Below, piece after piece: positions 1,447-20,547 of a DNA stretch of 25,957 bases. Source of the stretch: a virus. Location: IMG/VR virus record IMGVR_UViG_3300045790_000066, positions 1-25,957 of that record. One strand, 5' to 3'. The translations under genes were made by a program, and so were the position numbers. The notes beneath the pieces were generated by a model. The model was not told the DNA's origin and did not search any database. It saw only the letters and a program-made list of their open reading frames with translations. Position 1 is the stretch's first letter. Every line of letters starts with the position of its first letter.

Positions 1447-1864
1447 TTTTTTCTCTCCATTCTTTTACATTAAATGAAGGACACTTCTTAACATCATCTA
1501 CTTCATAGTGTCCTATTATTTTTGTTATATTATATTTATCTTTTAATGTTTCTACGATTTGTTTTAATGTATCAAACTGTTCAGGTAAAAAATTATTTTC
1601 CCAACCACCTGATTTATCAGAACCACCTACCATACAAATTCCTATTGATGTACCATTAACTTGTCTAGCATGAGAACCTGTTCTATGTTCTTCTCTACCT
1701 ACTTCAAGTTTACCATCTCTTTTAATTACATAATGATAACCAATATCATCCCATCCATTATCAACAGTATGCCAATGTTTAATCTTAGCTGCATCTATAT
1801 CCATATCAGCAGGTGTTGCTGAACAATGAATAACAATCATATCTGTTTTAGTTCTTGGTGTCAT
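1436..1864 (-). CDS. N-acetylmuramoyl-L-alanine amidase, T7-lysozyme type endolysin
   Basis: This 142-residue protein aligns along its length with the T7 lysozyme (Amidase_2/PGRP) family. Visible zinc ligands are His13 (in IVIHCSAT), His119 (GHYEV) and Cys128 (KKCPSF). The catalytic Tyr43 (DIGYHY) and Lys126 correspond to T7 Tyr46 and Lys128. Other conserved blocks are IKRDG (47-51), GSHA (63-66) and SIGICMVGG (73-81). It cleaves the amide bond between N-acetylmuramate and L-alanine of peptidoglycan. It has no signal peptide, so export would depend on the overlapping holin. T7 lysozyme also inhibits its RNA polymerase; whether this one does cannot be judged. The start at 1864 overlaps the preceding gene by 17 nt. 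Met9 (codon 1840-1838) would avoid the overlap but shortens the N-terminus relative to T7. Confidence 0.95.
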   Translation of the reverse strand: MTPRTKTDMIVIHCSATPADMDIDAAKIKHWHTVDNGWDDIGYHYVIKRDGKLEVGREEHRTGSHARQVNGTSIGICMVGGSDKSGGWENNFLPEQFDTLKQIVETLKDKYNITKIIGHYEVDDVKKCPSFNVKEWREKNVA

Positions 1865-4800
1865 TTGTATCTTTAAATAAATTATTAGCTAAATCTTTTA
1901 ATTCCTTTTTATGTTTGCCATCTATTCTATTATTTAATATAGATTTAATTTTTACACCCCACTTCTTATCTTCAGCAAATCCTGTCTTAGCAATAGCATC
2001 TATAATATTTGCTTTACTTCCACTACCTTCATTAAATAATTTTATCTCTTCTCTAACACCAGCATAACTTTCTTTAGTTTCTATCCAATTTAAAAATTGT
2101 TCAATAGAAGCTTCTTCTGTTTTAAATTTTTTAATCTTTGCTTTGCTTTGACTAGCAGCTATAGATTCTTCCTTATCATCAAATGATTGAAAGTTAAATA
2201 AATTTTTACTATCTCTTTTTAAAAATTCAGATGAACCCCAACCAGTTTCTCCACTTGCAATAGATAATAAAATATCATTAGGTATTACATTATTGTTATT
2301 AGTAAGATAAACTTTTTCTGCAGTATTATTTAACCATTCTTTTTTAACAAGTGGTAAGTCAGGAAGATTATCATAAGATTTTTTAATAACAACATTAGTT
2401 TTTTTTGCAGGTATTATATCATTAGCTATAGCTTTATCCATATCTGCAGTTACTCCTGTTGTAGCTAGTGTTGTTGCTACAACTGCTGCAGCTAAATCTT
2501 TTTTTTTCATAGGTTTTTTCTTTGGTATTAATATAGGTTTATTTTTAGGTATAAGAATTTCTTCCCCTTCTTCATACCCTTCTCTCTTAATAATTCCTCC
2601 TGTACTTTTTTTAATTTTTTTATTTTCTTTTGGAATAAAAGGTACTATATTATTTCTATTCCACCAACCTCTTATTTTTGCTGTCCAATCAGGAATAGGC
2701 AATACTTTCTTAAAAAATTTTTCTTGCACTTCTTCTCTCTCAGCATTAGTTCCTCCAAACATTTCTCTAACTTGAATCCATTCTCCTAAAGTTGCAATCG
2801 TATTTTTACCCCAAGCATATCCAGGTGGCATCCATTCTTTTTTTCCAGGTCCAACAAACTTTCCTATAATATTTTCTGATAACCAACCAGCAGTTCCTGA
2901 TAATCTTAAACCATAAGCTAAGTAATCTCTCATATCATACTTTGCAGATTGCATAGACCCACCATGTTTTATTTCATCTCTTAATTGATGAATAGCAGAA
3001 TAAATTGGAACTGATGCCATCATTTTAATAAAAGTTCTTATATCTCCATTCTCTACTCTCTGTATCATCTTATGAGTTTGAGATGATTTAGCCATAGCCC
3101 ATGATTGAAACTGTCCAAGTAATCGTAAGTATGGATTTTGTGACATAGTAAATAATAATCTATTTGAAACTTGTGGTATTAATGCATCTCTATTTGCAAA
3201 CAACCACCCAGCTTCATTTAATACATTACTAGCTAATTTATTTTCTAAAGATTTATCGAAGGTATTAAATCTTCCAACCTTTAAAGCATCATCCATTCCT
3301 ATACCAAGTCTATCTAACCATTTATATACATTTATAACTTTAGGATTATCTGCTGCCAAGCCATCTTTTATCATTAACTTATATAATTTTCTTGTTTGCA
3401 TCCATGTATCCATTGCACCAGTATTGTAAGCAAATCTTCTTGAGTTACCAGTTAACCATGCTAAACCTATACCTTGAAATACTTTCTTATTAATAAATCT
3501 ATAAGCTTCTTCAGGTTTACCTAACCATGTTGATATTCTAAAAAAACTTTTAGCATCTGAATTAGTACTTAATACAGAGTCTTTTGATTTTACATTATAT
3601 GCCATACCTCTAGCTAAAGAATCTTCAATGTCTGCCATTAAATGTAAATTCATATTTCTTGCTGGACCCCATTCTGAAGCAGCACCTAATGTTGTTCTTC
3701 CAAGATAAGGAAAACTTTTAACCCAAGCCATCGCATTAGCAGAGTTAACAAAACTACCTACATAATCCCCCATAGATGCAATACTAACAGTACTTAACAT
3801 CTGTGTATTAGCACCAGTTGATAACATACCTGTAAAAAAGTTATTAGCTTTACTCATTTTTTGATGATAACTGTCAAAGAAACCATCAATAACTCCATAG
3901 ACATCATCCAATTCTCTTCGACCAGCCCATGAATCATTCCAAGCACCAGAGATATTAGAATTTTTATATTTATTTTTTATCTGTGCAAATAAAGGTTCTA
4001 AGAATTTTCCATTAGGACCAAATTGTTTAGTAAAAGCATATGACTTAGCAGTATTAGATACCATATTTGTTAGTATAGATAATATATTTGTATTTAAATA
4101 TCCTTTTTCCATAAGAATTTTTTCAACTAATTCATAAGGTCCATTTAGTTTTCTTTCATTACTTATATGTTTACTTAAAGGAGTTGTTATAAAATTTTCA
4201 TTAAACTTTTTCTTATCAGAACTTAACCATTTTTCAATACTCTCTCTATTTAATAATTTATCCCCATCATTTCTATTTGGATTTGTGTACGATTTTACTA
4301 ATGCTTTAGCAGAAGAATCGGTTGCACCCAAACTTTTAAATATATTAAATAAATCTTTTGCAAATTCTTTTTGATTGGTTACTATTTTTTGAGAGTATTC
4401 TCTAGGAAAATAATTTTTAGGTGTAAAGAATTTCTTTCTTTCTTTTGCAGACAATCCTTTTTTAGTAACACCTTGCCATGAAATTCCTTCTAGTTCTGTA
4501 AAAATTCCAACATCATTTAAATCTTTTTGAAATCTATATAACCATCCTTCAATATCTTTAGCTAGTTTAACTACTCTTTTATTACCCAACACAGTTTTAT
4601 CTTTATTACCTTGAATAATAGACATAGCTAACTCACCTTCTTCTATAGATTGTTTACCTATAATTGTAGATATTTCTTTAATCTTTGTCATCCTCCATTT
4701 TTCAGAAACATTAACTACAGATTTACCTGCAGCAGGAGAATCAATATTTTCAAGCATAATTTGACCAAATTTAGCAGTTGCTCCACCATATCCTTCAAGT

Positions 4801-6545
4801 TTAGTTGCATTAGTTGCAGCAAAAGTTATCCTTGCATTTTGAATTGCAAGTTTTAAATTATCACTAGCAGCTATTCCTAATATTTTATCTTTAGTAGCAA
4901 AAGAAAATTTAGGACTTGCTCTCATTCCTCTTATAGTTGCACCAACCATAGCACCACTAATTATCCAAGCTTTTAAATTTTGTCCATCATTACCTAAAGC
5001 ATTAAAAAAAATTCCTAAAGCTCCACCACTTGCACTTGTGACTAAAGGTAATGTACCATAACTTAATATAGGTCTAATAATATTAGAAGTTAGAAAATTT
5101 TCATTAGCTGCTAATTTTTCTAAAACTAAAAGATTTCTTTTAACAACACTAGCTGCATACTTATCATATTCTATTCTACCATTTTTAATTAACTGGTCTC
5201 TTAGTTTAGCAAAGTTACTTTCATTAAGAAGTAATTTCTTTTCAATATTAGCAAGTTCATTTACTAAACTTTTTGATTTATGTTTATTAATAATTTTTTT
5301 AACACCAACATTCCCAACCTTAGCTGTTAATTTATTTGCTTCTTTAGTAAGTTTTTTAATTTTTAATTGTGAAAATATTAATTTTTTATTTCTATCAATA
5401 AATTTTAATGATTGAGTTGATAATGCTTCTAAATTTTTTAAATTAGTTCCAATCTCATTATTAAAAATTTTAACTTCTTTAGAATTAGCAATAGCTCTTA
5501 ACTTATTTAATTCCTTTGGAGACACTCCATAGAATTTAGCTTTCTTATCATTAAGAATAGAGATAATTGCATTTAAATTTTTATTAGTAGCTTTAGGAAA
5601 AATTTTAGCAATGGTATCAAAAGCACCTTTAGTAAGACCCCCAAAGACAACTCCACCTGTAACATTTAAACCTAACTCTAATTTATTAACACTTCCCTTA
5701 GTACCCATTTGCTCAACCCAATTGTAAGCACCCACTACAGCACCTGAGTGAGCCATGAATCCTTTATAAGTTCCAAGTACTTTTCTAAAAGGTTTATAAG
5801 CATAAGCAGCATACCAATAAGGGTCTAAAAAATGACTAATAAGTTCAGTTGCCTGAACAAGTGTATCATTATCTTTTTTACCATCAGCAAACTTCCAATG
5901 TTTTTCTGAAAATGCTTTATTTTCTCTAATAGTTTCTTCTAAAGCAAAATCTTCTAAATTTTTATCTTTATCAAATTGTGATTTAATAGTTGCTTTACCT
6001 AAATCCCAAAGATGACCACCAAAAAAATTTGCTTTATCCCAACCATAGCTTAATCTATCAGCAGTACTAATATTATACTTAACCTTTGTTGATAAAGAAT
6101 CAAGAAAATCTTCTTCTTCTGGTTTTTTTAATTGAGGTGGTACTTCTTTTGAATCTACAGTATCCCAATTTGTTTCTTTAATTCCATCCTCTTTATAATT
6201 TTTAATTAACTTTTTTAATTCAAAAAGATTCCCTTCATTCCAAGAATTTTCAATAGTAGATAGTAATTCAATACCTTCAGTTACACCACTACCAAGTACA
6301 GTATTCTTTTGTGATTGTATTAAGGCATTTATCCATTTAGTATTAGTAGGAGTAGGATTGTCTATTGCATTTTTGGTTTTTTGGATAAGAGATAACTCAT
6401 CTTTGTTATCTATAGGTTGAGGAAGATTTTCATTATCTTCAGCTACAACACTAAGAGAATCTAGTAAATTTAATTCTTCTTTTGGTTGTTCTAAATTAGT
6501 ATTAATAACACTAATATTATCTAATATAGAAATATCTGTTGCCAT
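1848..6545 (-). CDS. Giant internal virion/ejection protein with C-terminal glucosaminidase domain
   Basis: This 1565-residue protein is the largest product in the window and sits where T7 has gp16, the ejection protein that spans the cell envelope. Most of it is Lys/Asn-rich and helical, with scattered hydrophobic stretches, for example about 485-515 and the Gly/Ala-rich region around 940-990. A basic stretch followed by an Ala/Val/Thr-rich hydrophobic segment lies at about 1346-1366. The C-terminal ~135 residues look like a GH73/Bax-FlgJ glucosaminidase domain: GETGWGSS at 1432-1439 with likely catalytic Glu1433, then KNLFNFQ (1447-1453), ASIEQF (1479-1484) and TGFAEDKKW (1521-1529). It would locally open peptidoglycan during DNA entry. 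T7 gp16 instead carries a lytic transglycosylase at its N-terminus. No clear Shine-Dalgarno sequence precedes the ATG. Confidence 0.88.
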   Translation of the reverse strand: MATDISILDNISVINTNLEQPKEELNLLDSLSVVAEDNENLPQPIDNKDELSLIQKTKNAIDNPTPTNTKWINALIQSQKNTVLGSGVTEGIELLSTIENSWNEGNLFELKKLIKNYKEDGIKETNWDTVDSKEVPPQLKKPEEEDFLDSLSTKVKYNISTADRLSYGWDKANFFGGHLWDLGKATIKSQFDKDKNLEDFALEETIRENKAFSEKHWKFADGKKDNDTLVQATELISHFLDPYWYAAYAYKPFRKVLGTYKGFMAHSGAVVGAYNWVEQMGTKGSVNKLELGLNVTGGVVFGGLTKGAFDTIAKIFPKATNKNLNAIISILNDKKAKFYGVSPKELNKLRAIANSKEVKIFNNEIGTNLKNLEALSTQSLKFIDRNKKLIFSQLKIKKLTKEANKLTAKVGNVGVKKIINKHKSKSLVNELANIEKKLLLNESNFAKLRDQLIKNGRIEYDKYAASVVKRNLLVLEKLAANENFLTSNIIRPILSYGTLPLVTSASGGALGIFFNALGNDGQNLKAWIISGAMVGATIRGMRASPKFSFATKDKILGIAASDNLKLAIQNARITFAATNATKLEGYGGATAKFGQIMLENIDSPAAGKSVVNVSEKWRMTKIKEISTIIGKQSIEEGELAMSIIQGNKDKTVLGNKRVVKLAKDIEGWLYRFQKDLNDVGIFTELEGISWQGVTKKGLSAKERKKFFTPKNYFPREYSQKIVTNQKEFAKDLFNIFKSLGATDSSAKALVKSYTNPNRNDGDKLLNRESIEKWLSSDKKKFNENFITTPLSKHISNERKLNGPYELVEKILMEKGYLNTNILSILTNMVSNTAKSYAFTKQFGPNGKFLEPLFAQIKNKYKNSNISGAWNDSWAGRRELDDVYGVIDGFFDSYHQKMSKANNFFTGMLSTGANTQMLSTVSIASMGDYVGSFVNSANAMAWVKSFPYLGRTTLGAASEWGPARNMNLHLMADIEDSLARGMAYNVKSKDSVLSTNSDAKSFFRISTWLGKPEEAYRFINKKVFQGIGLAWLTGNSRRFAYNTGAMDTWMQTRKLYKLMIKDGLAADNPKVINVYKWLDRLGIGMDDALKVGRFNTFDKSLENKLASNVLNEAGWLFANRDALIPQVSNRLLFTMSQNPYLRLLGQFQSWAMAKSSQTHKMIQRVENGDIRTFIKMMASVPIYSAIHQLRDEIKHGGSMQSAKYDMRDYLAYGLRLSGTAGWLSENIIGKFVGPGKKEWMPPGYAWGKNTIATLGEWIQVREMFGGTNAEREEVQEKFFKKVLPIPDWTAKIRGWWNRNNIVPFIPKENKKIKKSTGGIIKREGYEEGEEILIPKNKPILIPKKKPMKKKDLAAAVVATTLATTGVTADMDKAIANDIIPAKKTNVVIKKSYDNLPDLPLVKKEWLNNTAEKVYLTNNNNVIPNDILLSIASGETGWGSSEFLKRDSKNLFNFQSFDDKEESIAASQSKAKIKKFKTEEASIEQFLNWIETKESYAGVREEIKLFNEGSGSKANIIDAIAKTGFAEDKKWGVKIKSILNNRIDGKHKKELKDLANNLFKDTNDTKN

Positions 6546-6553
6546 AATATTTT

Positions 6554-8272
6554 TTATTCAAAAGTCTGTATTATTTCATAAACTCTTGGGAAGTTACTTT
6601 TAATTGTAGCTTTATCTTCTTTAGATAAGCTATCCCATTTAGTTTCAGATAAATCCATCCAACTATTTTTATTAGGACTCCAATATTTAACACTATTTTC
6701 ACCTTGAGAATTTATTTCTTTTGTAGGTTTAAAATTATCAGTAAGATTTTCATCTGTCTTCATATCCTGAATTACTTCATTCATTGCATTAGGTAATTTA
6801 CTTTCATCCATACTTGCAGCTAAGGCTAACCATAATGATTGTCCAGCATTACTCATAAGTATATTATCTTGATTCATCATTTTTGAAATATAAGCCATTC
6901 CTTCATTAGGATTATCTTTATATTTTTTATATCTAGCTTTACTTAATTCTTTAGTATCTGAAAATAATTTTAATACATTATTATATCCAGCTTCAGTTGA
7001 AAATATATTACCCCAAGCTGCAGCTAAATTTTTTACTTCAGCTCTATTTAAATTAATAGAAGATGCAACCATCTTACCCATATCATCTTTTTCAAAAGTT
7101 TTAAAATCATTATTTATATTAAGCACACTAAGAGGTACTATAGTAACTGCTTCTGGTTTTCCATCTGTACCAAAAACAGGAAAATGGTCTCCTGTTAAAT
7201 AATAACTTCTATCAACTATATTATTTGAAATAGCTTTATATACTACAGCTTCAGATGATAAATGATAAATGTTTCCTCTAGCATCATTTTGATATCTTTC
7301 ATCATTCATTAAAAAATTATAAGCAGATGCTGCTGTCATTTTATTTTTTTCATCTTGAAAAGCAGTTTCTATATAATTTGTAATTACTCTTCCAGGGGAA
7401 TTTAATCTTATTATATTTTTGTCATTAACATTTTTAATTGTATAAAATGCTTTACTATCTGCACCAATTGCTGCAAATATATCTGTTATACTACTGGTTG
7501 CTTCTTGATTATCAATACCTTTAAAAGTAACTTTTGCCATTTCAGTATTCCATGCTTTAGAAAAGTCATCTTTAACAGTTTGGTCTGCTGCAGCCCATAA
7601 ATTAACACCCTCACCACTAGAAGTATATATAGTACCTTGAAGTTTTTTAGATATAAAAGCTTCTTTATCTTTTTGTTTAGCAATTTTTAAAGCTGCCATT
7701 TGCTCATCAACTTTATTATTAATTTCTTCGCTGCCTATAACTAAAGGTTTTTCTTTAATACCAGTAATTTTATTAATTAAAAAACTATTACCTTTAGCAT
7801 CTAATAATTTATTTGTATATTGTTCTGATGCTGCACTCTCTACATTATCTATTTCAGCTTCTAAATATTCTTTACTCTTTTCAGATGTATTATTATAATT
7901 AATAGTTCCAGTACCATTTTCTCCAGCCATAGAATTTTTAGTTGAATTAATAAACTTTGCTTGTTCTTTTGCAGCTAAGTTTAAAAAGTTAGGATATAAA
8001 ATCATATTATATTTAACAGCATAATCATGTGCTGAACCAGTACCATCTTCAGGCATACTTGCATTTAAAGATTTAATTGCTTTAACCTTTGAATCTTCTT
8101 GTTCAAAAGCAGCTAATTCTGAATCATACTTTTTATTTTTTCTACTAATATAAGATTGTTTATCAGCAAGAAGCATTTGTCCACGAATTTTTAAATCATC
8201 ATCTGTATGTTTTCTATCTCTTTCAATAGCTCCTTCAGCTACTGTTAGTAAATCTCCAAAATTAAAACCCAT
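6554..8272 (-). CDS. Internal virion protein (gp15-position), 572 aa
   Basis: This 572-residue soluble, mostly helical protein has no signal peptide or membrane segment. The N-terminus (MGFNFGDLLTVAEGAIER) leads into a Lys/Asp/Glu-rich helical stretch (about 18-65), followed by mixed alpha/beta sequence and a polar C-terminus. It lies directly upstream of the giant gp16-like protein with a 9-nt gap, and its ATG overlaps the previous stop by one base (TAATG at 8274-8270). By synteny it corresponds to T7 gp15, a core/ejection protein. I found no enzymatic motif. The role as an internal core protein is inference from position, size and composition. Confidence 0.8.
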   Translation of the reverse strand: MGFNFGDLLTVAEGAIERDRKHTDDDLKIRGQMLLADKQSYISRKNKKYDSELAAFEQEDSKVKAIKSLNASMPEDGTGSAHDYAVKYNMILYPNFLNLAAKEQAKFINSTKNSMAGENGTGTINYNNTSEKSKEYLEAEIDNVESAASEQYTNKLLDAKGNSFLINKITGIKEKPLVIGSEEINNKVDEQMAALKIAKQKDKEAFISKKLQGTIYTSSGEGVNLWAAADQTVKDDFSKAWNTEMAKVTFKGIDNQEATSSITDIFAAIGADSKAFYTIKNVNDKNIIRLNSPGRVITNYIETAFQDEKNKMTAASAYNFLMNDERYQNDARGNIYHLSSEAVVYKAISNNIVDRSYYLTGDHFPVFGTDGKPEAVTIVPLSVLNINNDFKTFEKDDMGKMVASSINLNRAEVKNLAAAWGNIFSTEAGYNNVLKLFSDTKELSKARYKKYKDNPNEGMAYISKMMNQDNILMSNAGQSLWLALAASMDESKLPNAMNEVIQDMKTDENLTDNFKPTKEINSQGENSVKYWSPNKNSWMDLSETKWDSLSKEDKATIKSNFPRVYEIIQTFE

Positions 8273-9309
8273 TATACAATCTCCTTATCTATATCTACTG
8301 TTTCTTTAAATTCTTCTACTTTTGAAGGTAGTTCTGTTTGTACTCTTTCTAATAAACTTGCACCTAAACTTTCAGCTTTTGGTTTCTCAAATTTATCTTT
8401 AGTAGTTGGTTCATTATCATCCTCTCCTCCAACATTAATAGGTACTTCATTATCATCAGGTATATTATTATCACTATCATCTTCTTCACCTTCATATAAA
8501 ACATAATCCTTAATGTCTGCATAATCAGCTATAGCAACTAACAAATAGATAGTTGGTTCTGCTAATAATAACATTAAATCTGGATTAAAAATTCCTTGAG
8601 TGTAAGCACGATATAAAATAATTTGAGCTATTTCTGATAAAGGAGTTCCCTCATCAATTATACTAATAAGCTTACCTAAATTTTCATCAGAAGTTATTTC
8701 CATATAAACATTTTCCATAGCTTCATCTTTATCAGTAATTTGAGAAGGTCTTTCCCATGACTTAGGCATATCTGGAGCTGTAGTTAAAGATTCTCCAGGT
8801 ACAGGTGAACTAAAAGGATTAGGTCCTATTTCACCACCTTCTGCAGCAGTCTGTCTAAGCATAAATTTATCATCTTCACTAACAGGTTCTTTAAATTTCA
8901 TTTTTGATGCTGCTTCAGTATCTAAAGTAGTTCCACCATGTTTATCTCTATACATTCCAGTATTTAAAAGTTTTTTCTTTTCATAATAACCAATGGCAGA
9001 GCCTTCATTCTTATTCCATATACCATCTTTTTCTAATCTATCACTTTGTTTATCTAAAAACTTATCAGCTTTATGTACTTTCATATAAGCTTTATTTAAT
9101 TTTTTTATTTTATCACTTCTCTTATTAATTAAACCACCTAGAATAGGATAGTTCTCATCAGGATTAGATGCTCTTTCAGCTTTCATAGCTGCCTTAATAT
9201 TATTTTTTTTAATATCAAGTCTAGCCCAACCTTCTTGAATTATCTTTGCAGCATTCTTTTTAGCTTGGTTATCTATTTCTGTTTCTGGTAATTTATTTTT
9301 ATTTGCCAT
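8272..9309 (-). CDS. Probable virion-associated protein, acidic C-terminus, 345 aa
   Basis: Residues 1-110 are Lys-rich and helical. A linker rich in Pro/Ser/Gly follows (about 155-195). Residues 196-270 form a compact helical segment containing EGTPLSEIAQIILYRAYTQG and LMLLLAEPTIYLLVAIADYA. The tail has an acidic run (GEEDDSDNN) and further Asp/Glu. The hydrophobic helices in the third segment look amphipathic rather than clearly transmembrane. Both ends share a single base with neighbours through TAATG (9311-9307 and 8274-8270), so it is translated as part of the internal-protein set. It lacks a recognisable catalytic motif. Its position suggests a minor structural or assembly protein; a scaffold-like role is possible but undemonstrated. 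Confidence 0.75.
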   Translation of the reverse strand: MANKNKLPETEIDNQAKKNAAKIIQEGWARLDIKKNNIKAAMKAERASNPDENYPILGGLINKRSDKIKKLNKAYMKVHKADKFLDKQSDRLEKDGIWNKNEGSAIGYYEKKKLLNTGMYRDKHGGTTLDTEAASKMKFKEPVSEDDKFMLRQTAAEGGEIGPNPFSSPVPGESLTTAPDMPKSWERPSQITDKDEAMENVYMEITSDENLGKLISIIDEGTPLSEIAQIILYRAYTQGIFNPDLMLLLAEPTIYLLVAIADYADIKDYVLYEGEEDDSDNNIPDDNEVPINVGGEDDNEPTTKDKFEKPKAESLGASLLERVQTELPSKVEEFKETVDIDKEIV

Positions 9310-9455: not shown

Positions 9456-10730
9456 TTATCCTGCTAATATATCCATATTTTTATATGAGTTTTCAATGTT
9501 TCTTGCATTTGCGTCACCAAATACTTTTGCAAAAAGAGAACCACCACTAGAACCTATAATTTGAGATGCATCATAATTTGTTTTTGAGTCAGTATAAAGA
9601 TTAGAGTTATTATCAACTGCATAAACTACATCATGTTTATCTGGTTCTGCACTTAATAAACTATCAGCTTTACTAAAAGCTAATTTCTTAGCTTTCTTTT
9701 TCCAACTATCTTTAGCAATTTGTTCTTTAAATGAACCATCACCATTAAACTCATAAGTACCTTGTCCACCTCCTCCTGCTTGTCTTAAAGAATAATCTTT
9801 TGAAGTTGATAAATCAAAATCTAAATAATTATTTTCTCCACCAACACTATTAAATAAATCAGTAGATGTAGCACCATTTTCTAACATGATGTCTCCTATT
9901 TGTTGGTCATTAATATAACTACCCATATCTTTTGCACGAGTAACTAAATCATTTTTATATCTTAATGCATTCTTAGATAAAATATTATTTTGACTCCAAG
10001 CATCATTAATAGTATTTGTAATTAATCTTTGATTACCAACTTGTGCTTTTGATAATTCTTGAGTCCACCAACCACCACTTTGTGTACCTAAAGATTGTCC
10101 TTGAAGTTGTGAACCTTCAATTACACCTGCTTGTAAAGCTGATGCAGCTTGATTAGTTGTCATGCTTTTATTAATTAATGTATTATTCCAAGAAGAAGGA
10201 CCTGTAGCCATCTGTCCTGTAATATCTACACTACCAGCCACACCTTTTTTCCCAAAAGCTTTTGCAAAGTTTTGTTGAGAAGACCTATATAAATTTTTTG
10301 CACCTTTAGAAATTTTTGTCCAATAGTTTCCTACTTTAGTTCCTTTACCTGCAAAAGATTGAAAAGTTTTAGCAATTGATTTTGAAATTGAATTAAAAAC
10401 ATTACTCATTGCACCAGTTGTAGCTCGGTAGCCAGTTCTAATAGAGTTACCAACTTGTCCAGCACTTCTTAAAAAAGTTGACCAAGCACCTGTACCTTGA
10501 GTTGCTTGTAATCCTGTAGTCATAGTACTTAAACCACTAAGAGCATAGGGCATCGCCATAGCTAAAGCTATAGAACCTAATGGACCTAATTTCTTATTAA
10601 CATAATTAACACCTCTCATTACAGCTTTACCAACTTTTGCAATACCTTTTGCAACACCTTTAAATATTTTACTTAAAGGTTTCTTTGCTGACTTCTTTAC
10701 TTTTTTCCAAATTTTACTAAAAAATCCCAT
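9456..10730 (-). CDS. Internal/minor virion protein with cationic N-terminus and hydrophobic segment, 424 aa
   Basis: The first 47 residues are strongly cationic and amphipathic (MGFFSKIWKKVKKSAKK, then repeated KG-V/I-AK patterns). A hydrophobic stretch follows at about 50-66 (PLGSIALAMAMPYALSGL). The rest is rich in Ser, Thr, Gly, Asn and Gln with few motifs; Gly-rich GGGGQG lies near residue 320. It sits between the 704-residue repeat protein and the 345-residue protein, among probable ejection proteins. The N-terminus resembles a membrane-active cationic peptide, which would suit a protein delivered into the cell envelope with the DNA. No enzyme signature is visible. An AAGGA ribosome-binding site lies about 9 nt before the ATG. 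Confidence 0.78.
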   Translation of the reverse strand: MGFFSKIWKKVKKSAKKPLSKIFKGVAKGIAKVGKAVMRGVNYVNKKLGPLGSIALAMAMPYALSGLSTMTTGLQATQGTGAWSTFLRSAGQVGNSIRTGYRATTGAMSNVFNSISKSIAKTFQSFAGKGTKVGNYWTKISKGAKNLYRSSQQNFAKAFGKKGVAGSVDITGQMATGPSSWNNTLINKSMTTNQAASALQAGVIEGSQLQGQSLGTQSGGWWTQELSKAQVGNQRLITNTINDAWSQNNILSKNALRYKNDLVTRAKDMGSYINDQQIGDIMLENGATSTDLFNSVGGENNYLDFDLSTSKDYSLRQAGGGGQGTYEFNGDGSFKEQIAKDSWKKKAKKLAFSKADSLLSAEPDKHDVVYAVDNNSNLYTDSKTNYDASQIIGSSGGSLFAKVFGDANARNIENSYKNMDILAG

Positions 10731-10742
10731 ATTATATAATCC

Positions 10743-12857
10743 TTAATTTTTTTTGTTTGCTTCTATTGTTTTCCATATATCTAATCCAAAACCACCAAGA
10801 TTTTTTAATTGTGAAATCTTATTAGAATCTAAAGCTGCTTCATTTCCTAAAGCTGCAATAGTAATATTAGTTTGTCTTTCGTCTTGATTTTGTGCTGCTT
10901 CATATTCCCATTTAGCAGAATCTCTCATTTCTTGCCATAGAAAAGATAAACCTTGATTACTCATATTAAATGAGTTCATAGCATTAGCTTGATTAACAGC
11001 ATTTGCTCCTGCAGTATTTGCAGTATTCATCTGTCTTCTCCATAATACATTTGATTGTTCAATTAAATTTGAGTTCTGTGTATTAAATTGTTCTCTATTA
11101 AAATCTAGTTGAGTATTAAATTTTTCTATTTCAGTATTCATAGTATTTTCTAATCTATCAGCTTCTAAAGTATTATTCTGATTTAAAGCAGCTACTCTAT
11201 TTGTTTCAGTTGAATTATAAACTTGCATTGCATCATTTCTTGCAGCATTTTGTTGATTGATTGTTGATGCTAAATTGTTTATAAACTGATTCATTTGATT
11301 TGTACTTGTTGCATTAAATTGAGCAGCAGCATTTGTAGCAGCTTGGTCAGATAACATTGTTTGTTGTCTTTGTTGTGTATTTAATATTTCAGTTTGTTGT
11401 GCTGCAGATAAATTAGTCATATCCATTTGTAAAAAAGCTTGAGCATTACCTACTGCTTTTTGTTGAGCATTAGATAAATTAGCCATATCCATTGTAGCTA
11501 ACTGTACAGCATTTTGCATTGTACTTTGTTGAGTATTAGATAAATTAGTTAATTCAAATGTTTTATATAAATTAGAATTTGATATTGCAGTTTGTTGTGC
11601 ATTGTTTAAATTTAAAACATCAAAACCTGCACTTGTTTGTGCATTAGCTAAAGCAGTTTGTTGTCCTGTACTTAAATTAGCTAAAGACATTTGTTGAGTT
11701 AACTGTCCTTGAGTTAAACCAGCTTGTTGTACATTTGCTAAGTTTGCTAATTTAGTTTGTTGAGCTTGTGCAGCACTAGCAATAATAGCTTGTTGTTGGT
11801 TCATTGCATTTAGTTTAATTATCTCTTGTGAAAACTGACCATTCATCATCTTAGCTTTCATATCATTCTCAGAGTTTACTAATTGAGTTTGAAAGCTTTG
11901 TTGTGCTGATAATACTGATGCTTGTTGTTCGTTAGTTAAATTTTGTGATGCTCTTTGTTGTAGAGCTGTTGCATTAGATTGAGCAATAGGTAATGCACTT
12001 TGTATAATTGCATTTACTAAAGCATCTCTTCCAATAGAAGACTTACTTAATCCTCTTTGTGCTAAATTCTTTTCAACATTTTCAACTGCAGCTCTAGCCC
12101 ATGTAGGAATAGTACCAGTATCAATACCAGTTAACAAAGAAGTTATTTGTGTAGATACTAAAGCATCTGTAGGTAAAGAAGCGATTGAAGCTTGTACCGA
12201 AGTAGGTGAACCTTGAATTGTTGCAGTAAGTTGAGCAGGATTACTTGCGATTGCTGCTACAATAGCAGTAGGTAATGTTGCAGTTTGTCCAGCAACAGTT
12301 GCAGCAGTACCACTTAATACTGAAGCTAAAGCTCCTGAAGATAATTGTCCTGAAGCTGCTTGAGCAATTGCTGAACTTGATGGTCCACCAGTTGCACCAG
12401 TTGCAGTACCAGATAAACTTCCAATAACTGTACCTATTTGTGAATTAGTTCCAACTGTACCACTTTGAGCAGTACCACTTTGAGCAGTACCAGTAGCACC
12501 AGTCATTGTTGATAAGGTAGGAGCTGTTGGAGTAGCTGCTGAAGAAGATGTTAAAGCTGTTGGTGATGCTATTGATTGACCAGTAATTGAAGCTGAAGCT
12601 ATATCTGTAGGAGCAGCTAATGTATTACCACTTAATAATTCATTTGATTGTACACCTTGGTTTGTATAAGATTGTTTAGCTGATGCTGCTAATTCAGGTG
12701 ATTTGATTTGGTCAGTAACAAACTTATCTATGTTTTGATTTCTAGTACCTAAACCACCTTGTTGTGGTTCAGAAGCTTTAGGAATACTTTTAAAATCTCT
12801 AACTTCATCACCAACAGCATATTTTTTTCTTCTAATTCTTTTAATCTTTGTTAACAT
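10743..12857 (-). CDS. Internal virion protein with 22-residue helical repeats, 704 aa
   Basis: The N-terminus is basic (MLTKIKRIRRKKYAVGDEVR). Residues 75-250 are Ala/Ser/Thr/Gly-rich and of low complexity, including a short GTAQS duplication. Residues 306-503 hold nine consecutive 22-residue units in perfect phase, best seen as N-L-x-x-x-Q-Q starting at 372, 394, 416, 438, 460 and 482. Residues 505-640 are Asn/Gln-rich, and the C-terminus (640-704) is helical with WQEMRDSAKWEYEAAQNQDERQ. It opens the internal-protein block, the position of T7 gp14. The helical repeat could form a long rod or lie on a membrane. A strong AAGGA ribosome-binding site precedes the ATG. No catalytic motif is seen. 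Internal or ejection protein is inference from synteny and composition. Confidence 0.8.
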   Translation of the reverse strand: MLTKIKRIRRKKYAVGDEVRDFKSIPKASEPQQGGLGTRNQNIDKFVTDQIKSPELAASAKQSYTNQGVQSNELLSGNTLAAPTDIASASITGQSIASPTALTSSSAATPTAPTLSTMTGATGTAQSGTAQSGTVGTNSQIGTVIGSLSGTATGATGGPSSSAIAQAASGQLSSGALASVLSGTAATVAGQTATLPTAIVAAIASNPAQLTATIQGSPTSVQASIASLPTDALVSTQITSLLTGIDTGTIPTWARAAVENVEKNLAQRGLSKSSIGRDALVNAIIQSALPIAQSNATALQQRASQNLTNEQQASVLSAQQSFQTQLVNSENDMKAKMMNGQFSQEIIKLNAMNQQQAIIASAAQAQQTKLANLANVQQAGLTQGQLTQQMSLANLSTGQQTALANAQTSAGFDVLNLNNAQQTAISNSNLYKTFELTNLSNTQQSTMQNAVQLATMDMANLSNAQQKAVGNAQAFLQMDMTNLSAAQQTEILNTQQRQQTMLSDQAATNAAAQFNATSTNQMNQFINNLASTINQQNAARNDAMQVYNSTETNRVAALNQNNTLEADRLENTMNTEIEKFNTQLDFNREQFNTQNSNLIEQSNVLWRRQMNTANTAGANAVNQANAMNSFNMSNQGLSFLWQEMRDSAKWEYEAAQNQDERQTNITIAALGNEAALDSNKISQLKNLGGFGLDIWKTIEANKKN
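11349..11942 (-). repeat. Nine-unit in-frame 66-bp (22-residue) degenerate repeat
   Basis: Within the 704-residue gene, units begin at residues 306, 328, 350, 372, 394, 416, 438, 460 and 482, always 22 apart. The consensus is roughly N-L-S/N-x-x-Q-Q-T-A-x-x-N-A-Q, followed by about ten more variable residues ending near M/L-A/T. The unit at 328 is degenerate. The protein period is exact while the DNA has diverged, so selection has kept the spacing. Twenty-two equals two 11-residue helical repeats. Confidence 0.85.
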
Positions 12858-13223: not shown

Positions 13224-14252
13224 TTACCTAGCTTTAGCAGTAACACCATTTGTACCTACGATTGATTGTCCAAATGCCATATAAATATTTGTGTTACTTG
13301 AAGCATTATAATTTGTATCAGTTGTTCTTATTTTAAAACCATTACTTAAAAAATCCATTTCTTTAGTGGTGTCCTCAACTAAAGAATCATTTGCTGCTAT
13401 TGCTTTTGTCATTTCATTACTCGGTGACCTTTTATTATCCCACATAAGCCATTCTCCTGAACCAGTTGCATCTTTAATCATTAAAAATGCTGGTTTGAAT
13501 CCTGTATAAACAAATGAACCATCAGCATTTCCATTACCTGTGTAGGATGAAAATTTTGAGTAGCCTTGAACATCTGCGAAGCAATATGCAATCATACTAT
13601 TTCCACTTCCATTTACTGCTGTATCACTACTAACAATAAAATCAGTAGCATCAGGAGTAGAGTTATTAAAAAATCCAGATGCTGTTGTAGGTGTAGCAGT
13701 AGTATTTAAATAACATGCTTTAGTATTTCCTGTACCTACATGATATACAACCCATTGAGCTGAACCATTAGATAAATTTTTAATCATAACAACTTTAGGT
13801 ATTACTCCTAATCCATGTGAAACTAAAATATTTCCTGCTGTTCCTGTCCATTTAACAATACTAAAACCTGCTGTTGTATTAGCTCTGACAGTAGAAGTTA
13901 CACTACCACTATTAAGTGTTTGTGAAGCTCCTGCTTTCCAAGTCCATGATACAAAAGTATCTCCATTATTATTATATCCACCTTGACCACCAAGAGAAAA
14001 ACCATCTGTTACAAAGCCTGTTACCCCTGTACTATCTGTTGCTTCTGCACCAGTTGCATTAGAATATATTGCTTTTGTTGCACCTCTAACAGAATCTACT
14101 AAATGATGACTTGCAGGACTATTTCTTCTTTTTAACCAAACAAGGTCTGCTTGAAAAGTACCTGATTCAGTTATATTTCTTGTTCCATCATCACCAGTAT
14201 AGAGCATAGTGTTTTGATAAAGTTTGCTATTATTTATTGTAGTATAAGCCAT
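13224..14252 (-). CDS. DUF7483-type fibre/receptor-binding protein, copy 2
   Basis: This 342-residue protein begins MAYTTINNSKLYQNTMLYTG and ends with a YMAFGQSIVGTNGV block. It is a clear full-length paralogue of the 341-residue protein at 18197-19222. It resembles proteins of the DUF7483 family that are common near tail-fibre genes of marine phages (family name from recall). Three internal segments share a pattern: a Gly/Phe-Pro lead, a hydrophobic strand ending I-K, then a Trp-containing strand. They lie around residues 32-60, 148-176 and 253-280, suggesting repeated beta units. There is no signal peptide or membrane span. It probably decorates the distal tail and contributes to host binding; that is inference. 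Its start is coupled to the LamG/SPRY gene by TAATG (14254-14250). Confidence 0.82.
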   Translation of the reverse strand: MAYTTINNSKLYQNTMLYTGDDGTRNITESGTFQADLVWLKRRNSPASHHLVDSVRGATKAIYSNATGAEATDSTGVTGFVTDGFSLGGQGGYNNNGDTFVSWTWKAGASQTLNSGSVTSTVRANTTAGFSIVKWTGTAGNILVSHGLGVIPKVVMIKNLSNGSAQWVVYHVGTGNTKACYLNTTATPTTASGFFNNSTPDATDFIVSSDTAVNGSGNSMIAYCFADVQGYSKFSSYTGNGNADGSFVYTGFKPAFLMIKDATGSGEWLMWDNKRSPSNEMTKAIAANDSLVEDTTKEMDFLSNGFKIRTTDTNYNASSNTNIYMAFGQSIVGTNGVTAKAR

Positions 14253-15607
14253 TATTCGTTAAGTCCTTTTGTGTTAAGTGCTGAGTATCCTGCTGGTACT
14301 GTATAATTAAATTTAGATGCACCTTCTGCACCTGCATAACCATTACCTGAGTTTGTAGTTATTGCTGTTGTTCCAAAAAAACCATTGCCGAAGTTTACAT
14401 TACAAACTCTACTTTGATAATTAGTTGCTAAAGGCAACCAATCTACACTTGTAGATAATCCTGTATAAGCAGAGTTAGTTGTAGTACCTGATGCTATTTC
14501 AGAAATAGTAGCAGAGTTTTGCCATACACCATCTTTAGAAAACCAAATAGTACCAGTTGTACTATCAAAAGCTGTTCCTATTATATTTCCACTTGCATAG
14601 GTACTTCCATAACTTGTAGCAGTACCTTCATTAATTTTATTTCCATCATCTTCATAGCCAACACATTGATTTCCAATAAAACTATTATCATAAGAAGATA
14701 AATCAACTATTCCAGTAGTTGCACTTCCATCTGACCCAGCACTAACCCATTTAGTTTCCCAATAATATTTACCTTTTAATGCAATAGAACCAACAGCATT
14801 AAGATTAGAATTTGAATTATTAAATGATGCTGTTGTATTACCATTTGAAAATGTTGGGTTTCTATCTCCACTAGTTTCTCTAGGAACTAAAGGCATAAAT
14901 GTAGCAAAAACATTATCAGGATTATCTTTTAAATCTGTAAGAGTACCACCACCTAATGTAAAGTCATTACCTTCACCTGATTGGTCAGTAATACCATTAC
15001 CATCTTTAAGAATAAAGAATCCATTATTTCCATAAGTAACTGAAGGAGAAGTCTTAGCTTCCCACTCACCTGTAGTTGCATCTGTTGAACCGAAAGCTGA
15101 TGCGTCATAAGCTGTTCCATCTATAAAGTGTAAATGAGAAACTGAACTATCAAGATAAGACGCATTTCTATAACTATCTTTTCCTATTGTATGTTCAATA
15201 GCAGAATTTATAAGTGAAGCTTGATTTTGAGTTGGGTATGTTAAATCACCCCCAACAGATGTATCTGTTTCTTGATTTCCATTTATATAAATTTTTAATC
15301 TTTCAGAATCTGTAACATTTGCAGAATCAAAAGATATAACTAAATTATACCAACCAGAAACATCTCTTAATCTATTTGATAATCTAAAAGAGCCTAGTGC
15401 TGAACCACCACTTACTTGAGAATAGTATTGTAGTTGACCACTATTGTAATTAGACCAAATTTGTTGATAATTACTACTATCGCCACCTGCACTAAATAAA
15501 GTATTAATATCTCCACCTATGTGTCCTTTTTTAATCCATGCAGAAAGTGTCCACTTTTTATTATTTGTTGGTGTTCCTAAAGTTCTTGTTAAATATGTAT
15601 TAGCCAT
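14252..15607 (-). CDS. LamG/concanavalin-like plus SPRY-like fibre protein, copy 2
   Basis: This is a 451-residue protein. Residues 1-185 look like a LamG/concanavalin-A-like jelly roll: KKWTLSAWIKKG near the start, GWYNLVISFDSA mid-domain, LKIYINGNQ, and a terminal YLDSSVSHLHFIDG strand. Residues about 260-440 look SPRY-like: GKYYWETKWV, an internal GIVDLSS, NIIGTAFDSTTGTIWFSKDG and VNFGNGFFG. Both folds commonly bind glycans or proteins, so a distal tail adhesin is likely. It is a paralogue of the 441-residue protein at 19222-20547; both end with S-A/T-LNTKGLN-like sequence. One-base TAATG overlaps join it to genes on both sides (15609-15605 and 14254-14250). Confidence 0.83.
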   Translation of the reverse strand: MANTYLTRTLGTPTNNKKWTLSAWIKKGHIGGDINTLFSAGGDSSNYQQIWSNYNSGQLQYYSQVSGGSALGSFRLSNRLRDVSGWYNLVISFDSANVTDSERLKIYINGNQETDTSVGGDLTYPTQNQASLINSAIEHTIGKDSYRNASYLDSSVSHLHFIDGTAYDASAFGSTDATTGEWEAKTSPSVTYGNNGFFILKDGNGITDQSGEGNDFTLGGGTLTDLKDNPDNVFATFMPLVPRETSGDRNPTFSNGNTTASFNNSNSNLNAVGSIALKGKYYWETKWVSAGSDGSATTGIVDLSSYDNSFIGNQCVGYEDDGNKINEGTATSYGSTYASGNIIGTAFDSTTGTIWFSKDGVWQNSATISEIASGTTTNSAYTGLSTSVDWLPLATNYQSRVCNVNFGNGFFGTTAITTNSGNGYAGAEGASKFNYTVPAGYSALNTKGLNE

Positions 15608-16650
15608 TAATTAAATCCTCCTGAGCCTGACATCTCAAAAGCGAAGCTCATACTAAAAGCTCTTACTGCTGTCTGTCCTTCGGCATCTGTTGCTGTTATA
15701 CTAAAATTTTTTGTACCTGCTGCTGTAAATTCTGTTTGTGTTCCTGCTATTGTACAACTTCCTGTACCAGAAGTAAATGTTAATCCTGTTGGTATTGCAC
15801 TTGTTGTTACTGCAAATGATGTAGCATTAGTTGCTGATAAAGTAATTGTACTTACAACTGAACCACCAGTATAAATAGAACCTGCTGCTGTTGTCCAAGC
15901 TGGAGCATCTGATACTGTTAGTAAAGCTGAACCACTTCTTACTGCATTACCATCATTGTTTTCAATTCTTAAATAGTATGTACCATCAACTGGTAAAGTA
16001 AATGTTGCTATGACTTGAGTAGCACTTGTATAAACAATACTATCTGCTGGTGTAATAGCACCTGTAGAATTAATTGCTTCTACTTGAGGTACTGATATAA
16101 AATTTGTTCCTGTTATCGTAACTGCTGTTGCAGTATTTTCTATAACTGTTGGAGATATGCCTGATATAGTAGGTTTTGTTTCTCCGATTGTAACACTACC
16201 ACCTAATGAAACTGCACTACCATTAATTGTAATAGAGCTAGTAGATAATTTTGATGTTGCTATAGCTGCTGAATTATTAATATCTGCATTAACAATTGTT
16301 CCATCAACTATCTTTGCACTTGTTACTGCATTATTTACAAGTTGTGCTGTATTAACTGTACCATCTGCTGGTGTTGTAATAAAACCAGTACCCATTTGAT
16401 AAATAAAATCACAAGTATCTGCGTCTGCTAAAGCACTACTAAAAGTTATTGTTGAACCACTAACAGTAAAGTTACCATATTGAGTTACACCATTGATTGA
16501 TACAACCATAGTATCTGCTGAAGCTGGTACGAATGCTACACTAGCTTTAGTTAAGTTATAAGGACCAGCACCTGTTGCAGTAGCTGGAGTTATAACATCT
16601 AGTTTTTCAACTATGCTAAATCTATCTAAATTTTGTCCTATGTATGCCAT
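15607..16650 (-). CDS. Tail fibre protein with IPT/Ig-like domains, 347 aa
   Basis: Residues 1-95 match an N-terminal unit common in marine phage fibres (MAYIGQNLDRFSIVEK, then YNLTKASVAFVPASADTMVV and GVTQYGNFTVSGSTITF). Residues 97-140 carry the TAQLVNNAVTSAKI-type fibre repeat. SITINGSAVSLGGSVTIGET (139-158) is nearly identical to the N-terminus of the 505-residue protein. Residues 160-246 are IPT/TIG-like (ITGTNFISVPQV, YYLRIENNDGNAVRSG). Residues 250-335 are Ig-like (GLTFTSGTGSCTIAGTQTE, FSITATDAEGQTA). The C-terminus is GGFN. It is probably a fibre shaft or adaptor presenting the LamG/SPRY and DUF7483 partners encoded next. No clear ribosome-binding site is visible. It heads the second fibre cassette. 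Confidence 0.82.
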   Translation of the reverse strand: MAYIGQNLDRFSIVEKLDVITPATATGAGPYNLTKASVAFVPASADTMVVSINGVTQYGNFTVSGSTITFSSALADADTCDFIYQMGTGFITTPADGTVNTAQLVNNAVTSAKIVDGTIVNADINNSAAIATSKLSTSSITINGSAVSLGGSVTIGETKPTISGISPTVIENTATAVTITGTNFISVPQVEAINSTGAITPADSIVYTSATQVIATFTLPVDGTYYLRIENNDGNAVRSGSALLTVSDAPAWTTAAGSIYTGGSVVSTITLSATNATSFAVTTSAIPTGLTFTSGTGSCTIAGTQTEFTAAGTKNFSITATDAEGQTAVRAFSMSFAFEMSGSGGFN

Positions 16651-18196: not shown

Positions 18197-19222
18197 TTAT
18201 CTTGCGTTATTAGGAACATTATTGCTCCCTACTATTGATTGTCCGAATGCCATGTAGATGTATGTTACACCATTACTATTTTGACTAGAATGAGTTATTC
18301 TAATTTTAAAACCATTTGATAATAAGTCTATTCTATCGTCATTATTACTTTCAGCATCTGTTGCATTAGCTTTTAAATAATCATTTTGTGGGTTGTAACC
18401 ATCTCTTTTATTGTCATGCATATACCAATCTCCTGTAGCAGAAGAAGGTTTTGTCATAACCCAAGCTGGTTTAAATCCTGTGTAAACAAATGGACCATCA
18501 ACATTTCCATTACCTGTGTAGCTTCCAAATTTTGAGTAGCCTTTTTTTTCTGCAAAACAGTAGGCTATATATGTTGCACCACTTGTATTAACACTTCCAT
18601 TAGTTCCTATACTAAATAAAGTATCTGTAGGACTTGTATCATTCCATCTATCACTTTGTGTACCTGCTGCTCCAGTATCAAAATTTATTTTTTTAGTAGC
18701 ACCTAAACTTGCATGATAAGTTGTCCAAGAATCTGCACCACTTAATTTTTTAACAATTATAAATTTTGGTATTGCACCTAAACCATGACCAATTGTAGCA
18801 TTACTGCCTGTACCTGTCCATGAGCATATTGAAAAACCTGCTGTTGTATTAGCTGAAACAGTTGAGTTTATAGAACCTGCTGTATTAGCTGAACCTGCAC
18901 CATTTGCTTTCCAGTTCCATGATGCAAAATTAATACTATTACCATTTACTTTTGTTCCATTACCTAATGTAAAACCATCTGAATTAAATGCAGTTAATGT
19001 TGAGGTATCAGTTGATTCTGTACCAGTAGTATTGGAAAAAATATTTTTGGTAACACCTCTAACTGCATCAGTTAAAACATGATTTCTAATATTATTTCTA
19101 TCTTTTATCCAAGTAAAATCTGGTTGAAAACCAACACCTGTAATAGCATTTGTTGATGCGTTACCTGTGTAGAGCTTAGTGTTCATGTGCAAACTGCTCT
19201 TATTTATTGTAGTATAAGCCAT
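18197..19222 (-). CDS. DUF7483-type fibre/receptor-binding protein, copy 1
   Basis: This 341-residue protein begins MAYTTINKSSLHMNTKLYTG and ends YMAFGQSIVGSNNVPNNAR. It is a full-length paralogue of the 342-residue protein at 13224-14252. Closely matching blocks include HVLTDAVRGVTKNIFSNTTG, TTAGFSICSWTG, GHGLGAIPKF and YSKFGSYTGNGNVDGPFVYT. The middle (about 190-215) and the variable loops between strands differ most. The same three internal repeated beta segments are visible. The DUF7483 name is from recall. Its ATG overlaps the preceding LamG/SPRY stop by one base (TAATG, 19224-19220), and its own stop lies 3 nt before the next gene. It is probably part of the distal tail receptor-binding assembly. 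Confidence 0.82.
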   Translation of the reverse strand: MAYTTINKSSLHMNTKLYTGNASTNAITGVGFQPDFTWIKDRNNIRNHVLTDAVRGVTKNIFSNTTGTESTDTSTLTAFNSDGFTLGNGTKVNGNSINFASWNWKANGAGSANTAGSINSTVSANTTAGFSICSWTGTGSNATIGHGLGAIPKFIIVKKLSGADSWTTYHASLGATKKINFDTGAAGTQSDRWNDTSPTDTLFSIGTNGSVNTSGATYIAYCFAEKKGYSKFGSYTGNGNVDGPFVYTGFKPAWVMTKPSSATGDWYMHDNKRDGYNPQNDYLKANATDAESNNDDRIDLLSNGFKIRITHSSQNSNGVTYIYMAFGQSIVGSNNVPNNAR

Positions 19223-20547
19223 TATAAATTTAATCCTTTTGTTGATAAAGCTGTATAGCCTGTTGGTACATCATATTCAAATATTCCATTGCCACTTGCG
19301 TTAGTTCCTGCACTAGATACTGCTGTTGTTCCGAAGTAGCCATTGCCGAAGTTTACTTCTATAGTATCTTGACCTGCTATAACTCCAAAAGCTACTAAAT
19401 ACATACCTTGTGATGTAGAACCTACTGAAGTTATATTAACTCCAGAAGCACCTAATATTGAACCATTTTTATAAAAATATATTTTGTTTTGTGCTGAATC
19501 TAAATCTACAGCTATTCCTATTATATCTCCTGCTGTATAAGTTGCATAAGTTGCAAGAACAATGCTTCCACCACTTCCATTTGTTGTTTCAACTTTACCT
19601 GTACTTAACAAACCATAACCATTTAATTGTAAAGGTGCAGGAGAAGCAGTATTTCCAAAACTTGGTATAGGTTGAATACCTAGAAAAGGTGCTGATGAAC
19701 TTAATGTTTTAGCTTCCCAATAATATTTACCTTTAAACATTGGTATAGTTGCTGTGACACTAGCTTCTCTACTAGTACCTGTAGTAATTTTTGTATTACC
19801 ATTACTAAATGTAGCATTAGCATAATAATTATCTAAAGGATTTAATGTAGCAAAATTATTGCTTGGATTATCTTCTGTTTTTGTAAGTGTACCACTAGCT
19901 AAAGCAAAATTATTAGAATTTGATGATTGGTCTGTAATAGTATTTCCATTATGTAAAATCATAAAACCATTAGTACCCCAAGTAAAAGAAGTTGAAGTTA
20001 AATCTTTAATTCTCCATTCTCCAGTATCGGTATCTGTTTCTCCAAAAGAAGTAGGTGCTAGTGATTGCCCATCAATATTAATAATATCTGACAACACTCC
20101 ACTAAAATAATCATAATTATTACTGTGTCCACCTATTTGATGAACTGCTGTTACATTCCAAGCTAAATCTGCGTTTAGTGAAGGTTTTGTATCTGTTGAA
20201 TAACCACCTACTGTTCTTTCATCAACACCATTTATGTATATTCTAAATCTATCATCTGCAGTTGACTGTGTTGTATCAGCTCTGATAACTAAATGATACC
20301 AAGCAGATTTATCTAAAAATTTTCTATTAGTAACTAAATTAACACCACTTTCATTATAACATCTTATTGTTCCAGCTGATTGAATCATACATCTAAAATA
20401 ACTACTAGAAGTCTGACCAATTATTTCTCTTGAATCTCCACCTGCACCATCAGTAAATGGGTGTTTTCCTATTTTAAACCAAAGTGAAATTGTAAATGTT
20501 TTTCTATTACTTGCTGAACTTGGTGTTCTTGTTAATTTTGTATTCAT
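19222..20547 (-). CDS. LamG/concanavalin-like plus SPRY-like fibre protein, copy 1
   Basis: This is a 441-residue protein. Residues 1-170 look LamG-like: NRKTFTISLWFKIGKHPF, SAWYHLVIRADT, FRIYINGVDERTVGG and SGVLSDIINIDG. Residues about 250-430 look SPRY-like: FKGKYYWEAKTLSSSAPFLG, GDIIGIAVDLDSAQNKIYFY and EVNFGNGYFG. The C-terminus is YTALSTKGLNL. It is paralogous to the 451-residue protein at 14252-15607, with the same domain order and the same coupling to a DUF7483-type gene. Jelly-roll and SPRY folds usually mediate carbohydrate or protein recognition, so an adhesin role is likely but inferred. It is joined to both neighbours by TAATG overlaps (20549-20545 and 19224-19220). Confidence 0.83.
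   Translation of the reverse strand: MNTKLTRTPSSASNRKTFTISLWFKIGKHPFTDGAGGDSREIIGQTSSSYFRCMIQSAGTIRCYNESGVNLVTNRKFLDKSAWYHLVIRADTTQSTADDRFRIYINGVDERTVGGYSTDTKPSLNADLAWNVTAVHQIGGHSNNYDYFSGVLSDIINIDGQSLAPTSFGETDTDTGEWRIKDLTSTSFTWGTNGFMILHNGNTITDQSSNSNNFALASGTLTKTEDNPSNNFATLNPLDNYYANATFSNGNTKITTGTSREASVTATIPMFKGKYYWEAKTLSSSAPFLGIQPIPSFGNTASPAPLQLNGYGLLSTGKVETTNGSGGSIVLATYATYTAGDIIGIAVDLDSAQNKIYFYKNGSILGASGVNITSVGSTSQGMYLVAFGVIAGQDTIEVNFGNGYFGTTAVSSAGTNASGNGIFEYDVPTGYTALSTKGLNL

Follow-up and report, generated by a model that had tools for sequence, protein, structure and literature searches.

An eleven-residue register lock in a length-variable, probably helical repeat of a putative podophage ejection protein

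The viral contig IMGVR_UViG_3300045790_000066, analysed whole (the window, 25,957 nucleotides), encodes a 704-residue protein with a long Gln/Asn-rich repeat, and the locus raises the question of what keeps the repeat units in phase and what such an array would do in a phage (Table 1). An earlier note, made from the letters alone, had described nine 22-residue units with an NLxxxQQ core, starting at residues 306 to 482. Nine in-phase frames are indeed found, with the heptads NLTNEQQ (306), NSENDMK (328), NAMNQQQ (350), NLANVQQ (372), NLSTGQQ (394), NLNNAQQ (416), NLSNTQQ (438), NLSNAQQ (460) and NLSAAQQ (482), but the core is exact in only seven of them, a variant at 350 and absent at 328; an additional NAxxxQQ lies at residue 295, 11 residues upstream of the array start. 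Self-identity of the array is 0.33-0.34 at lags 22, 44 and 66. Shuffling the sequence 5,000 times with its composition preserved, and taking the highest identity over lags 2 to 69 each time, never gave more than 0.224, against the 0.33 observed at lag 22. A weaker 11-residue period runs C-terminally from the array to about residue 590 and beyond. At the DNA level the array region holds just a short 66-bp array (11406-11548), so the repeat is mostly a conserved protein register rather than a fresh duplication.

Table 1. Coordinates in the window of the repeat protein, its parts and the genes discussed with it
Feature	Position	Strand	Basis or remark
Repeat protein, 704 aa, gene 1 of the five-gene putative ejection cassette	10743..12857	-	ORF; family ORF present in 350 of the 355 loci fetched
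N-terminal region, residues 1-240	12138..12857	-	Basic start, then Ala/Ser/Thr/Gly/Pro-rich
Anchor A, residues 241-292, helical domain IPxWA...LAQRGLSxSS...SALPIA	11982..12137	-	Ends at conserved Pro290
Nine 22-residue (2 x 11) frames, residues 306-503	11349..11942	-	Repeat analysis
Second hendecad segment, residues 504-590, SDQAAxNAAxQFNA...	11088..11348	-	QFN once per 11 residues; length likewise in steps of 11
Conserved C-terminal part, residues 591-704, WRR...WQEMRD	10746..11087	-	Q590-W641 spacing constant at 51 in all relatives
Second cassette gene, 424 aa, basic amphipathic N-terminus MGFFSKIWKKVKKSAKK	9456..10730	-	Position kept in most family loci
Third cassette gene, 345 aa, PVPGESLT motif	8272..9309	-	Sequence motif
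Fourth cassette gene, 572 aa	6554..8272	-	In the place of a gp15-like ejection protein, judged solely from size and gene order
Fifth cassette gene, 1565 aa, C-terminal glucosaminidase domain	1848..6545	-	PF01832, E 9.4e-14
Nozzle/tail-tube-like protein, 603 aa	23646..25457	-	Length nearly the same in records whose rods differ greatly in length

A tblastn search with the repeat protein matched 26 phage records, all of HMO-2011-type and similar podoviruses, whose hosts are SAR11, SAR116, RCA roseobacters, Vibrio, Aeromonas, Pseudoalteromonas and rhizobia. Together with scans of viral contigs these records gave a family set of 355 fetched loci, 350 of them with a family ORF and 294 sequences being unique. 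The window protein received no assignment in Pfam, NCBIfam or PHROG, searches of solved structures with the protein, its profile and its giant neighbour returned nothing credible, and published proteomics, localisation or structures were found for no family member. No relative was confirmed in a bacterial genome, hence prophages gave no information.

Two stretches bordering the array, both non-repetitive and both required to be unique, served as register anchors: SALPIAQ (Pro290) and SDQAAxNAAxQFNA (Asp504). The spacing between Pro290 and Asp504 takes 22 distinct values over a more than 12-fold range of length, from 60 to 764 residues (60, 82, 104, 126, 137, 148, 159, 170, 203, 214, 236, 258, 324, 368, 434, 478, 544, 586, 588, 654, 698 and 764), and it equals 5 mod 11 in 290 of 291 unique sequences; the sole off-phase value, 586, belongs to a sequence (L329) apparently without two residues in its last unit. 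Downstream, the D504-Q590 spacing (53, 64, 86, 97, 108 or 152) is 9 mod 11 in 288 of 288 sequences. As controls, the lengths of the N-terminal (172 distinct) and C-terminal (58 distinct) regions are spread evenly over the eleven mod-11 classes (chi-square p 0.87 and 0.99). With an equal chance per class, the probability that 21 of 22 distinct values fall in one class is about 3e-20, a figure that is merely indicative because the sequences share ancestry. The 22 values require at least 21 separate length changes, and a tree built on the flanks gives about 48, of which only two are off-phase, both touching L329. Among 20 close relatives residues 265-675 contain zero indels, and, as a check against artefact, the W253-W641 distances are concordant with the lock after correction for differences of 1-4 residues in the W253-P290 loop. 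These computations establish an 11-residue register constraint on the array.

The earlier note had proposed, as a check, to look for changes of repeat number in whole 22-residue steps. Whole steps are what is seen among relatives, but the step is 11: differences by odd multiples of 11 (137 vs 148, 159, 203) break the 22-residue phase and keep that of 11, so the strict unit is 11 residues, 22 being the usual one, and the 22-residue phase has to be given up as the conserved unit. At greater lengths a coarser order appears. The ten in-phase P290-D504 values of at least 258 alternate between a ladder of 104+110k and one of 148+110k. Multiples of 110 also make up half of the in-phase changes on the flank tree. 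Long members on one ladder have an inner periodicity at lags 55, 110 and 220, those on the other at lags 22 and 110.

From Pro290 onwards the protein is probably a proline-free α-helical rod, as judged from its composition and a structure prediction of low confidence. Proline accounts for 0.00% of 55,451 + 20,515 residues in the array and the second segment, against 6.1% in the N-terminus; in both segments Trp and Cys are almost absent and Gly amounts to 1.3-1.6%. The longest proline-free run, of 228-957 residues, starts directly after Pro290 in 253 of 285 sequences. Units of the first segment follow the consensus N-[L/A]-x-N-x-Q-Q-[A/M]-x-[L/V/I/M]-x; the second segment is built on QFN, Phe occupying one position per 11 in 81%. 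In the AlphaFold2 monomer, helices cover the array region, but for most of the array the pLDDT per ten-residue block is about 36-53; confidence is also low over residues 1-190, within an N-terminal region whose length among relatives is not quantised, and in the AlphaFold monomer of an S74-bearing relative it is low outside the S74 domain. Foldseek searches with AlphaFold models gave insignificant, generic matches only in the PDB and, in BFVD, four significant matches, apparently relatives, those to tape-measure proteins being insignificant. The absence of proline and the helix prediction, low as its confidence is, agree with the earlier description of a helical, weakly charged, Gln/Asn-rich repeat. 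Right-handed hendecad coiled coils, such as tetrabrachion and the undecads of NadA3, have the same 11-residue period of three helical turns, and the preservation of the register through indels that marks such coiled coils is found here; in contrast to them, the present array has a central Gln instead of an aliphatic residue, weak single-stripe amphipathicity and a much greater length.

In the loci examined the repeat gene is followed by a gene for a basic amphipathic protein (in most of them), one for a PxPGxSLT protein, one for a protein of about 500-600 residues and one for a giant protein. This five-gene context, with the repeat gene first, is conserved in HMO-2011-type podoviruses. It looks like an ejection cassette, given the precedent of SU10, whose five-protein cassette gp20-24 is present in virions and missing from the genome-release intermediate (PMC9509320). 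The internal-virion, ejected status suggested in the earlier note fits this gene order, in which the repeat gene lies ahead of the large last protein, and the parallels with SU10 and phage 7-11. In the phiEco32/SU10/7-11 group ejection proteins likewise stand at or near the start of the ejection cluster, five of them being ejected in SU10, and the 7-11-type proteins share with the present family, mainly in one clade of it, a C-terminal Peptidase_S74 domain. Outside S74, profile comparison with hhalign detected no homology to the SU10 or 7-11 ejection proteins (probability <1%); SU10 gp22 is related to 7-11 gp20, in which no hendecad signal was found. In the P22-like, ejection-annotated gp17 of H6/1 (L358 4137-5213), which carries S74, the lags 11, 22, 33 and 44 rise above its shuffles, which suggests a possible recurrence of hendecads among unrelated ejection proteins. 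The T7 ejectosome of gp14, gp15 and gp16 is also an adjacent gene set whose giant last protein has a peptidoglycan hydrolase domain, and the fifth cassette gene occupies the gp16-like position; the match is by order and size, with no sequence similarity seen to the three T7 proteins, and the repeat protein would come in addition to the gp14-15-16-like set, upstream of it. In the second cassette protein the N-terminus is strongly basic and amphipathic (MGFFSKIWKKVKKSAKKPLSKIFKGVAKGIAK), and the protein seems, from its sequence, to be membrane-active. The motif of the third has the family-wide form xPGxSLTxxPxxPxPWExPP.

We propose, as a reading that we hold to be somewhat probable, that the repeat protein is ejected and forms an oligomeric helical rod bracing or extending the DNA path across the envelope, its ejection and trans-envelope role being argued by synteny and by analogy. 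The protein would be the first of five ejection proteins of an abundant, short-tailed marine phage. From Pro290 to near the C-terminus it would form an α-helix of 11-residue, three-turn units, paired as 22-mers in the array, and several copies would associate laterally, as a rod or tube, through contacts repeated at each 11-residue unit. An indel other than a multiple of 11 would then rotate the ends of the rod out of register and disrupt packing, whereas the gain or loss of whole 11-residue units would alter rod length alone. At infection the protein would leave the head with the other ejection proteins, before or alongside the DNA, and would help to build or brace the passage across outer membrane, peptidoglycan and periplasm. 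Insertions of 11 and of 5 residues thus have opposite predictions under the register model. Since length varies more than 12-fold while the register is almost never broken, the family offers a handle on what measures or braces the DNA path.

From the Peptidase_S74 domain of one clade we infer that the rod protein is oligomeric. The domain is typical of trimerising proteins, as the self-removing chaperone of trimeric phage proteins; it is appended after the conserved C-terminal part in some distant relatives, at the end of 32 of 45 members in an alignment mainly of that clade, and it also ends the first-in-cluster, ejection-annotated proteins of 7-11 and H6/1. Matches of S74-clade members to phrog_6121 and phrog_4287 ('virion structural' and 'DNA ejection') were set aside as proof, since they rest mainly on the S74 domain. 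Two relatives (L192, L197) carry a LysM domain near the N-terminus, ahead of the helical array, a sequence feature fitting contact with peptidoglycan. A long relative (L107, 1611-5387) has an HTH_28 domain at residues 158-193, inside its variable N-terminal region.

At 0.15 nm per residue, the rod from P290 to Q590 would measure about 25 nm in MQM1, 45 nm in the window phage and about 128-130 nm in the longest form. MQM1 has a 9.2 nm tail and a 70.6-nm head (PMC10410586). A straight rod standing in the capsid core, as the earlier note had envisaged, is thus contradicted for the family as a whole by forms of about 130 nm against heads of about 70 nm; the longest rods must fold back, lie outside the head or extend after ejection. 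It speaks against the ejected rod that S74 is otherwise usual in tail fibres and that the maximum length of about 130 nm far exceeds what the periplasm needs. A narrower version, which we advance tentatively, makes the ejected oligomeric rod a molecular ruler, fixing the length or the end-to-end orientation of the trans-envelope DNA passage in 11-residue quanta and steps of 110; in such a ruler the 110-residue steps of two lineages, with inner periods of 55 and 22, may keep the rotational match of the end domains.

The rival that survives best, though we consider it unlikely, is a trimeric tail needle or central fibre, a coiled-coil rod that plugs the nozzle and projects from the tail tip, outside the head, its length tracking the cell surface to be pierced and the rod being shed on infection. 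Rods of more than 100 nm are easier to place in an external fibre than in a 70-nm head, and S74 chaperone domains mark trimeric fibres, but S74 is likewise borne by first-in-cluster ejection-annotated proteins, and most members have no recognisable tip domain. The needle of P22 is gp26, encoded in a comparable gene position, and in P22-type needles the N-terminus plugs the channel, whereas the N-terminus of the repeat protein is disordered-looking, basic and highly variable in length. The repeat gene does lie between tail-fibre and ejection genes, near the needle position of SU10, where gp18 is the needle and gp20-24 are the ejection proteins (PMC9509320).

The face that the helices would present bears on a further possibility, raised by the earlier note, of an amphipathic helix of apolipoprotein or perilipin type that lies along lipid and coats the envelope at the entry site. 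Periods of 11 and 22 residues occur in such helices, perilipin-type faces are likewise low in charge, and the neighbouring 424-residue protein seems membrane-active. Hydrophobicity along the array does have a component at 98.2 degrees (11/3), the heptad angle being empty, but its power is strongest at 2.75 and 2.2 residues, above that at the helical period, a pattern in which no textbook coiled coil is apparent either. No single continuous hydrophobic face of the perilipin or apolipoprotein kind is present; position 6 of the unit, the centre of the most hydrophobic side, is Gln, in 83% in the first hendecad. Binding to a surface, moreover, needs no long-range quantisation of length between fixed end domains. 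We regard the lipid-lying helix as improbable. The hydrophobic surface is broad, which suggests that each helix contacts several neighbours, as it would in a bundle or tube; a two-faced lipid helix or a simple dimer fits this less well.

Slightly less probable is an unconstrained low-complexity Q/N/A repeat, expanded by recombination, in which the step would simply be the length of the DNA repeat. Recent 330-bp duplications are present on the upper rungs of the 110-residue ladder, in the classes of at least 478, with a best local DNA identity of 0.64-0.90 at lag 330 or 660, so the ladder is partly mutational, and a purely structural origin of the 110-residue quantum was not accepted. The classes 203-324, however, have no special DNA similarity at lag 330, and proline is absent throughout. 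Small indels, which need no repeats, occur in the N-terminal region but are absent from the array in 290 of 291 sequences. Higher-order repeats of 110 or 220 residues were seen in the coil regions of L090, L072 and L303, partly visible as 330-bp DNA repeats.

The closest formal likeness is to the tape-measure proteins of siphophages, such as Staphylococcus phages SAP-26 and 69 and Lactococcus phage TP901-1, which also have a long helix of 11-residue units, periodic aromatics (compare the Phe of the second segment) and gain or loss of whole units. About 5% of tape-measure proteins have 11-residue repeats with F/W markers, siphophage tail length follows the length of the tape-measure protein, and for TP901-1 the authors concluded that helical periodicity outweighs the side chains of the unit (PMC3271669, PMC5099701). 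The present proteins differ in the Q/N-rich 22-residue super-unit, the 110-residue steps and the short tails without a variable tail tube, and no sequence match to siphophage tape-measure proteins was detectable. The variable number of 11-residue units is shared; proportionality to a tail tube is not found. A relative of the nozzle-like protein is present in 24 of 26 records tested, at any rod length (open frames of 517-734 aa), and among 15 isolates rod length correlates neither with genome length nor with the length of the fifth gene. That the rod is a siphophage-style ruler setting the length of a polymerised tail tube is the least probable reading of all, since members of known morphology are short-tailed (MQM1, 9.2 nm with a rod of about 25 nm; CRP-9/13) and the nozzle-like protein stays nearly constant while the rod varies more than 12-fold. 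Tape-measure-like repeats, as the family shows, are not restricted to long tails.

Two observations concern the neighbouring tail genes. PHROGs annotates the nozzle-like protein as 'amidase' (phrog_5107), and in CHOED (CHOED_06) and Slicky01 it goes under 'dimodular nonribosomal peptide synthetase'; neither name seems right. The window also holds a tandem duplication of a tail-fibre-like module of three genes (13224-16650 and 18197-21518, minus strand), with pairwise identities of 51%, 38% and 42% (partial), and a Gly-rich gene of 505 aa sits between the two copies.
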